From NCBI GenBank assembly GCA_949290445.1, contig CASERW010000033.1, forward strand, positions 1 through 32,877: a stretch of 32,877 nucleotides of DNA, written 5' to 3'. The position numbers and the translations under genes were made by a program. The notes beneath the pieces were generated by a model that was not told the origin of the DNA, searched no databases, and saw nothing but the letters and a program-made list of their open reading frames with translations. Position 1 is the first letter of the stretch. Each line of letters opens with the position of its first letter. The DNA is from Aeriscardovia aeriphila. Its GTDB lineage: Bacteria; Actinomycetota; Actinomycetes; Actinomycetales; Bifidobacteriaceae. Shown here one piece after another: positions 16,410-19,067 of the stretch.

Positions 16410-16443
16410 ATACGCATACCACTGTTATACGCATACCACTGTT
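16410..16443 (+). repeat. 17-bp perfect tandem duplication upstream of the fusion gene
   Basis: ATACGCATACCACTGTT is at 16410-16426 and again at 16427-16443, in the 208-bp divergent gap between alr and the fusion gene. The junction creates TTATAC (16425-16430), a possible -10 box absent from a single copy. Confidence 0.93.
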
Positions 16444-16494
16444 TTTCGGCTACGATCGAGGAAGATAACGAATCGCAGCCTCGGGAGGTTGAGT

Positions 16495-18129
16495 ATGACC
16501 ACGCGCACCGAACAGCGCACCGCCTCGGAACAGCGCAGCTCAGAACGCAACAACTCTGAGCACACTAACTCCAGTCACCGTAACACCCACCACGCCACCG
16601 AGCGCTACGCTGAGCACTATTCTCCCTCTCGTCCGCACCGCCGCCCGCGTATGAAGCGCGCACCCCACCGCATTCTGCGGGCTTGGGAACATGAACCTCT
16701 CCAAATCGTCGTCATGGGAGTTTCTGGCTCAGGCAAATCTCACACTGCGCGCAACTTGGCCGAACAGTTGGGTTTTGAGTTCGTCGAAGGCGATGAGCTG
16801 CACCCTCAAGCCAATATTGAGAAAATGGCGTCTGGCACTCCCCTCACTGACGAGGACCGGTGGCCGTGGCTTGACTCAATTAACCACATCATGCAAGAAA
16901 ACGCAGAGAAGGGTGTAGGAACTGTCATCTCCTGCTCGGCGCTGAAGAAGGCCTATCGTCGTCGCCTGGAAAACAATATGTTTGATGGCGAGGTCGTTTT
17001 CATCCAGCTTGCCGCCCCGCGCGAAGTTGTGGCTTACCGCATGTCTCGCCGTCACGGTCACTTCATGCCTGCTGAGCTTCTCGATTCTCAGTACGACACT
17101 CTCGAGCCCCTTGAAGCCCAAGAGAACGGTTTCGCCGTTCAAGTCACTCTGCCTCCTCGTCGTGTGCAAGAGTCGATTCGCACGCGCTTGGAGTTGGGTG
17201 TTGATTCCGATGGTTTCGCCGATTACACGCTAGATGAGCAAGATTGCGCATTCCTCACCCTCGACATTGGCAACACTACAGTGGAAGCCTCGCTGGTGCG
17301 CGATGGCGATGTTTTCTATCGCGACCGCTTAGATACTGCTGACCTTCTGGCAGCCGAGGAGAATCACACGTCAATTCGCGAGTTGAGCGCCTTCATGAAA
17401 GACGTGGTCGCCGGTACTCCGATTTATGCGACGGTGATTTCCTCGGTCGTTCCTCGCTTGAGCTTGTCTGCTCTGCGCGCGAGCCAGTATATTCCCGCTC
17501 ATTTGGCCACGCCCGTCGTTGTGGACCCTGAGCTTTCCCGCGTATATGGCTTGAGCATTCCTGTCGACCCGCGTCCAATCGGCCATGACCTTCTCGCCGA
17601 TTGTGTTGCTGCTGTACCGCAGTCGAAGAAGCAGCCAGTGATCATTGTCGACATGGGAACAGCGACGAAGTTTTTGGTGCTCGTCGACGGCGTTTTCGTC
17701 GGTGCGAGTATCGCTCCTGGCATGCGCATGATGGCCGACTCGCTGACTGCCGGCACAGCGCAGCTCCCCCAGATTTCCTTGGACGAGCCTTCTGCTGCTA
17801 TCAGTTATGACACGGAAAGTTGCATGCGCTCTGGCGTCTATTTTGGCGCTGTTGGTGCGATTCGCGAGACGGTTGCTCGCATTAGCGACGAGCTGGCGAG
17901 CCCCGAGTTTGCGCGCACCTTTATGGAGCAATTCCCCGAAGTGCCCCTCAACTCAGAAGTCCTGGCCAAGGCTCCACTCGTGGTGGGTTGCGGCGGCTAC
18001 CACCATCGAGTGGAGAACTTTGAGCTTTTCGACACCACCACCTCAACTCTGGTTCACCAGGGCCTCGAGACTATCGGCGTGTCAACACTCACTTGGCTGT
18101 ACTGCTCAACGCCCTCTGAAAATCACTAA
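16495..18129 (+). CDS. Fusion of gluconokinase (GntK) and type III pantothenate kinase (CoaX)
   Basis: One uninterrupted frame of 544 residues. Residues 1-65 are a disordered Glu/Arg/Ser/His-rich leader. Residues about 68-240 are a gluconokinase: P-loop GVSGSGKS (75-82), HPQANIEKMASGTPLTDEDR and then WPWL, SCSALKKAYRR, GHFMPAELLDSQ. It would make 6-phosphogluconate from gluconate. Residues about 253-544 are a type III pantothenate kinase: LDIGNTT (Asp257), the PRPIGHDLLAD segment, DMGTATKF and GASIAPGMRMM, catalysing the first step of CoA synthesis. GGGAGG 6 nt before ATG 16495 fixes the start; a TTG at 16489 overlaps that site. The two enzymes share no known pathway step, so the fusion is unexpected. 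The family's usual DR pair reads DLLAD here, which may matter for activity. The 3' end overlaps the convergent znuA end by 41 bp. Confidence 0.93.
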   Translation: MTTRTEQRTASEQRSSERNNSEHTNSSHRNTHHATERYAEHYSPSRPHRRPRMKRAPHRILRAWEHEPLQIVVMGVSGSGKSHTARNLAEQLGFEFVEGDELHPQANIEKMASGTPLTDEDRWPWLDSINHIMQENAEKGVGTVISCSALKKAYRRRLENNMFDGEVVFIQLAAPREVVAYRMSRRHGHFMPAELLDSQYDTLEPLEAQENGFAVQVTLPPRRVQESIRTRLELGVDSDGFADYTLDEQDCAFLTLDIGNTTVEASLVRDGDVFYRDRLDTADLLAAEENHTSIRELSAFMKDVVAGTPIYATVISSVVPRLSLSALRASQYIPAHLATPVVVDPELSRVYGLSIPVDPRPIGHDLLADCVAAVPQSKKQPVIIVDMGTATKFLVLVDGVFVGASIAPGMRMMADSLTAGTAQLPQISLDEPSAAISYDTESCMRSGVYFGAVGAIRETVARISDELASPEFARTFMEQFPEVPLNSEVLAKAPLVVGCGGYHHRVENFELFDTTTSTLVHQGLETIGVSTLTWLYCSTPSENH

Positions 18130-19067
18130 CCAGAGCGCTCATCCACTCCAAGGTCGTGGCGTACTTTTCTGGCCTGGTTTCGGTCAATTCCACAGTAGGA
18201 ACGCCCGCCTTCTTCGCTGCTGCGAGCACTTGCTTGGCTGTCGAGTCTAGCTCTTGCTTGTTCACGACGAGAACGTCCGCCTTTTTGGTGTTCAGGAGCG
18301 TTTCAAAGGTGTGTAAATCTGAAGGTGCCGGCTCGGACTCATTTTGAACGGCTTGCGCGTACCCTCGAGGCGTGCGATCCGTCAAGCCCAAGTCGTGCGC
18401 CAAATAGTCGGCAACTGACTCGGTGGCCGCATACGTTAACATACGTTAAACCCTCGGATGTCGTCGAGTTTTTCTCGAGATTATCACGAATAGCAGTAAT
18501 CTCCTCTTCGACTTTCTTCTCCTTCTTCAACCATGCGTTGTAGCGAGAGGAGTAGTCAGCCTTGTGCTTGCCGTCGAGCTTGACCAGCTGCTCGTAAACA
18601 CCCTTGGCGAGGGCGCGGCGAGCTTGGGCAGAGAACCACAAATGAGGATTATCACCGTCTTGAGTGCCGTTTTCTTGCGCTGCGGAGACCTGCTTGGCGT
18701 TACCAGTTTGAGCGGCGTTACTCGCCCACGTGTCGTAACCGGCACCGTTGAGAACGACGAGTTGAGCCGAAGAGATGCGAGCAACATCTTGGGCTTGAGG
18801 CTCAAAATCATGCGCGTCAACAGAGGGGCTGGAGAGAATAGTTTGAACGTCAGCGTTATCTCCTGCAATCGCTTTTACCACAGAGGACCACTGGTTGACG
18901 CTCACCACCACGGAGAGCTTGCCCTCACTCGAGGAGGGTGCGAGCGGGCTTGAGCAGCCGACCATGCTCAGCACTGCGGCGAGAACGAATGCGAGCAGCG
19001 CGACCACGCGCGCACGGTTGTGAGTTGCTTGCTTGAGCGTTTCTTTCATCGATTCGTTGCGAGTCAT
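18089..19067 (-). pseudogene. ZnuA-like metal ABC transporter substrate-binding lipoprotein, broken by a 10-bp duplication
   Basis: From ATG 19067 (AAGG 8 nt upstream) the protein opens with a lipoprotein signal peptide (hydrophobic ALLAFVLAAVLSMVGC, lipobox Cys), then the zinc/manganese-binding family A-1 fold. Candidate metal ligands are His in DAHDFEPQ and in DNPHLW. The frame breaks at 18430-18449 after SEGLTY, where a 10-bp unit is duplicated. The other frame continues LTYAATESVADYLAHDLG and runs to a TGA at 18089. Removing one copy gives a single frame of 322 residues, normal for the family. The ATPase and permease partners are not in the window. If the break is real, the shifted product would lack the C-terminal lobe. 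No clear Zur box is visible upstream in 19068-19269, where I see no gene. Confidence 0.85.
18430..18449 (-). repeat. 10-bp tandem duplication in the ZnuA-like gene
   Basis: CATACGTTAA is at 18430-18439 and again at 18440-18449. The 10-bp insertion shifts the reading frame. Flanking bases show no extra shared homology. Confidence 0.95.

Follow-up and report, generated by a model that had tools for sequence, protein, structure and literature searches.

A gluconokinase gene fused in frame to a type III pantothenate kinase gene in Aeriscardovia aeriphila

Aeriscardovia is a gut relative of the bifidobacteria. In a stretch of 32,877 nucleotides of A. aeriphila DNA, here called the window, one unbroken reading frame ends in a TAA codon and encodes two enzymes in succession, a gluconokinase (GntK) and a type III pantothenate kinase (CoaX), which acts as the first kinase in the synthesis of coenzyme A. 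Fusions of CoaX with BirA are known; they share CoaX with the present case, but the partner enzyme is different from GntK. The locus thus raises the question of whether such a single chain is real, how it came into being and what its two halves do. We consider it likely that the product is a bifunctional two-domain enzyme which originated by in-frame fusion of neighbouring genes; that pantetheine is the substrate of its CoaX half is less certain.

Two kinase domains in one reading frame

The architecture of the frame is given in Table 1. A TTG codon at 16489 directly adjoins the Shine-Dalgarno sequence and presents an alternative in-frame upstream codon, from which the residue numbers of the domain matches below are counted.

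Table 1. Features of the gntK::coaX locus (positions in the window)
Feature	Position	Strand	Remark
Shine-Dalgarno GGAGG	16484..16488	+	6 nt before ATG 16495; from sequence
gntK::coaX fusion gene, 544 aa	16495..18129	+	same frame present in A. aeriphila LMG 21773
His/Ser/Arg-rich leader, about 66 aa	16495..16692	+	not in unfused GntK of the congener G003
Gluconokinase domain, TIGR01313	16705..17178	+	P-loop GVSGSGKS 16717-16740
Linker, about 23 aa	17182..17250	+	coincides with the ATGA gene overlap site of G003
Type III pantothenate kinase domain, complete fold	17251..18126	+	motifs and structure model
CoaX-half motifs	DIGNT 17263-17277; GHDL 17581-17592; DMGTAT 17650-17667; TAQLP 17755-17769	+	

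The N-terminal half matches the model of GntK-type gluconokinases (TIGR01313) from residue 73 to 230, over model positions 1-158 of 164 and with 181.9 bits at a curated cut-off of 113.75, in agreement with the original prediction of a complete GntK. Its solved relatives are the gluconokinases 4EUN, 3T61 and 1KNQ, with 4EUN at the top (E 4e-44). The P-loop and the HPxANIxKM and GHFMP blocks are shared with known GntK/IdnK-type enzymes. These, however, stand alone, are about 175 aa long and are encoded in gntK-gntP-gnd operons, whereas the fused enzyme begins with the leader, which to judge from its composition probably has no fixed structure, and runs into CoaX.

The C-terminal half matches PF03309 from residue 255 to 464, over all 205 model positions and with 141 bits (cut-off 24.7), and contains the DxGNT, GxD and DxGTAT motifs of type III pantothenate kinases. 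Its structure was modelled for the CoaX half alone, from an alignment of 21 sequences; in an alignment of the whole fusion with single-domain proteins the CoaX N-termini were misplaced. Over a length of 239-249 residues, the model (pLDDT 81, pTM 0.83) can be aligned with its solved relatives, which are type III enzymes, at best Z scores of 24.8-26.6. Because this alignment extends along its length, the CoaX half is to be regarded as complete, and not as near-complete, as first described. It shares fold and invariant motifs, bar one residue, with the solved proteins 2H3G, 3DJC and 2GTD/3BEX. All motifs named at the outset (GVSGSGKS, HPQANIEKMASG, LDIGNTT, DMGTATKF and GHDLL) are present.

The same 546-codon frame, 96-97% identical, occurs in the isolate A. 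aeriphila LMG 21773 (G001, contig NZ_MWWU01000002.1). The two fusion genes are of equal length (1641 nt) and differ by 98 substitutions, 78 of them in third positions, and by no indel, at a dS of about 0.23. With both domains above their cut-offs in one frame, and the same frame in the isolate, the proposed single-chain fusion is real. Comparison of the two genes gives a dN/dS of 0.013 for the GntK half and 0.074 for the CoaX half, by which both are under purifying selection. The ratio is about 0.12 for the linker, an estimate from 22 codons with only three substitutions. The leader, an open frame in either genome, gives about 0.3-0.6 over its few sites, and the final 75 codons give about 0.5; leader and C-terminal tail are loosely constrained.

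The residue after the catalytic aspartate

In the aligned solved type III pantothenate kinases, the conserved aspartate is followed by arginine (GADR), which may bind the carboxylate of pantothenate. The fused CoaX lacks this arginine and has leucine in its place (GHDL); all other invariant residues are retained. From this exchange, loss of pantothenate kinase activity had been considered possible. The CoaX half could then be catalytically dead and retained as a stabilising or regulatory domain, after the precedent of Mycobacterium tuberculosis CoaX, a non-kinase regulator of PanB depupylation (PMC12288473, PMC7770189). Weak constraint on the C-terminal stretch would fit such a role. However, the solved M. 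tuberculosis protein shows the reverse pattern, having GADR and an altered GTAT motif.

Moreover, among 148 CoaX from 145 Bifidobacteriaceae genomes, the residue in question is cysteine in 103, isoleucine in 20, leucine in six, methionine in six and arginine in 13. The arginine is thus replaced in 135 of them, genomes with full coaBC included. Since its replacement is the rule in Bifidobacteriaceae, GHDL is not to be read as a sign of decay, and within this family the GADR arginine is not a defining feature of CoaX.

Nor has another enzyme been found that would relieve the CoaX half of its task. A second CoaX was found neither in LMG 21773 nor in the window's genome, which is 84% complete by markers, and no type I pantothenate kinase was found in the genus Aeriscardovia, fusion genomes included; absence of the type II enzyme is unproven, as the search control was itself silent. 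In view of the dN/dS, the kept motifs and the lack of a second CoaX, decay is not the leading reading, and we hold a dead CoaX half to be unlikely. A change of substrate appears likelier than loss of activity.

The most probable reading is instead that both heads are active, as their sequences predict, the CoaX head perhaps on pantetheine. Motifs, fold and purifying selection suggest that the N-terminal half would convert gluconate to 6-phosphogluconate, usable by the 6-phosphogluconate dehydrogenase (6PGD) of the same genome, and that the C-terminal half would make the first phosphorylated intermediate of CoA synthesis.

Distribution and origin of the fusion

When the whole protein was searched against 30 family genomes, matches across both halves were obtained from the window's genome and A. 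aeriphila LMG 21773 only, and the same search among 396 genomes of the phylum revealed no further protein spanning GntK and CoaX. A GTDB scan, which reaches close relatives only, likewise placed the fusion in A. aeriphila alone. As originally supposed, no description of a GntK-CoaX fusion was found in our literature search; the two enzymes are known, whereas their fusion is new and, within the scope searched, the first of its kind. Some other CoaX of bifidobacteria likewise sit within long open frames, of up to 1203 codons, but long stop-free frames are frequent in such G+C-rich genomes, and we claim no fusion at these loci.

Stand-alone copies of the two genes, sought elsewhere in the fusion genomes, turned up in one case only. 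The window's genome has a second gntK in a hexuronate-type cluster (L080:8859-13882), while in LMG 21773 no GntK other than the fused one was found. Genes in the same cluster, named by reading, resemble those for mannonate dehydratase, fructuronate reductase and uronate isomerase, the last apparently split into two overlapping frames.

The search for the fusion in relatives, successful in LMG 21773, yielded two separate genes in another Aeriscardovia genome, G003. Here gntK (177 aa) and coaX (295 aa) overlap by ATGA and are flanked by dgt on the upstream and znuA on the downstream side, each on the opposite strand; the order around the fusion is dgt, alr, fusion, znuA. In G002, also of this genus, coaX lies between dgt and znuA and gntK is missing at the site. 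Its gntK is located elsewhere; in the tree it groups not with the fused gntK but with the additional, unfused one of the window's genome. In a genome of another genus, G164, gntK heads a gntK-gntP-gnd operon and coaX follows at a distance of about 11 kb, ahead of a Fur-like gene and znuA. The interval holds sulfur amino acid and peptide-transporter genes (genes of this region were named by reading translations). A second 6PGD paralogue, elsewhere a marker of the gluconate operon, is absent from all four Aeriscardovia genomes; the main 6PGD is kept.

That the genes are separate in all other genera examined marks the fusion as the derived state. It appears to descend from a coupled gene pair, although long branches make the deep placement of fused GntK and of Aeriscardovia CoaX in the trees unsure. 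The simplest course that we infer from gene order begins with loss of the intervening genes in Aeriscardovia, by which gntK came to adjoin coaX; genome contraction would account for the two becoming neighbours. The overlapping state of G003, in which the pair is probably translationally coupled, would follow. As the two reading frames differ in the ATGA overlap, an indel is needed for an in-frame fusion, and in the A. aeriphila lineage such an indel would have removed the gntK stop and the coaX start, leaving one frame.

Whether the fusion was selected for its own sake is a separate question. It might match gluconate and pentose-phosphate flux to CoA supply, or permit regulation between the heads, and its maintenance free of indels in two genomes at the observed dS, together with the low dN/dS of the linker, could be taken as a trace of such coupling. 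But the linker estimate depends on three substitutions, the fusion is present in only two closely related genomes, gntK and coaX are separate in congeners and other genera, and the gluconate and CoA pathways, as established, share no metabolite. Because the pair overlaps in G003 and lies 11 kb apart in G164, neighbourhood alone explains the fusion; a connection of gluconate entry with CoA supply, as first proposed, finds no support, and we regard selection for coupling as improbable. The covalent link is probably near-neutral. It would keep both enzymes at equal amounts, and nothing points to substrate channelling.

An assembly or sequencing error that deleted a stop between two genes, for which one could cite the indels nearby, such as a frame-breaking duplication in the adjacent znuA-like gene, is ruled out by the independently assembled isolate, whose frame has identical length in spite of the many, mostly third-position, substitutions.

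In the window, a 10-bp tandem duplication (TTAACGTATG twice) interrupts the znuA-like gene, which codes for a metal-binding lipoprotein (window 18089-19067, minus strand); in A. aeriphila LMG 21773 this gene is intact. Upstream of the fusion, at 16410-16443 of the window, a 17-bp tandem duplication, ATACGCATACCACTGTT, is single in the isolate.

Absence of CoaB and the pantetheine question

Type III pantothenate kinases are reported as pantothenate-selective. Without CoaB, phosphopantothenate is a dead end, and the useful product is phosphopantetheine, made from pantetheine. The models of CoaBC (PF04127) and strep-type CoaB (TIGR02114) are silent in both fusion genomes and in G002, with matches in 14 of 14 control genomes. 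The fusion genomes thus combine a pantothenate kinase with no detectable CoaB, one part of the pattern of the pantetheine shunt; in this setting, as well as in its position behind GntK and in GHDL, their CoaX differs from the solved type III enzymes. Because no CoaB was found in the fusion genomes, pantetheine would be the more useful substrate, and the CoaX half probably uses it, as bifidobacteria that require pantethine have to do, a step of our scheme less certain than the preceding ones.

The pantethine requirement of bifidobacteria has long been known. Bifidobacterium animalis BB-12 and B. longum BB-46, which are without PPCS/PPCDC, depend on pantethine and are unable to use pantothenate (PMC8660834), and for such genomes a pantetheine shunt via pantothenate kinase has been proposed (PMC6593275). 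On the other side, B. subtilis CoaX gave no support of pantetheine use (PMC11487621), and PanK-III of P. aeruginosa is without affinity for pantethine (PMC12570885).

The CoaX of CoaBC-less bifidobacteria resemble the fused one in that the arginine is replaced in 104 of 104; they differ in standing alone and in having mostly cysteine or isoleucine, where the fusion has leucine. Arginine is thus found in none of the 104 CoaX from CoaB-less genomes, versus 13 of 44 from CoaB-bearing ones. A significant association between loss of arginine and loss of CoaB was not shown: the tree holds only about two changes of arginine, and the test of independent pairs gives p = 1. Moreover, G003 has a strep-type CoaB alongside a GTDL CoaX, and 26 CoaBC-bearing genomes have only the cysteine type, so that arginine loss alone does not equal pantetheine use. 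In three genomes that belong to a single genus (G063, G124 and G021; L014, L022 and L111), a GADC and a GADR copy of coaX lie next to each other near coaBC. The strep-type CoaB of G003 (L096:1321-2391) is divergent, with a long insert, and none is detectable in its three congeners. Most of the small genomes of the family (genera g10, g12 and g13; 0.6-1.4 Mb) have no CoaX match; two of these, G174 and G182, are also without PF04127 and type I pantothenate kinase.

On this evidence, Bifidobacteriaceae CoaX may have shifted in specificity, which we present as a lead and not as a result. The chances are about even that the CoaX of CoaBC-less bifidobacteria, the fused one included, is a pantetheine kinase that has loss of the arginine as its mark.

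The survival of the unfused, overlapping state in a congener makes gntK::coaX a clear case of coupled neighbours turning into one protein, and also a warning that gene fusions of this kind need not mean a common pathway. As characterised CoaX reject pantetheine (PMC11487621, PMC12570885), yet these organisms need pantethine (PMC8660834), the locus also provides a testable lead as to which enzyme phosphorylates pantetheine in CoaX-only bifidobacteria. If the CoaX of CoaBC-less bifidobacteria in general does so, the kinase so far missing from the explanation of their pantethine requirement would be found in it.
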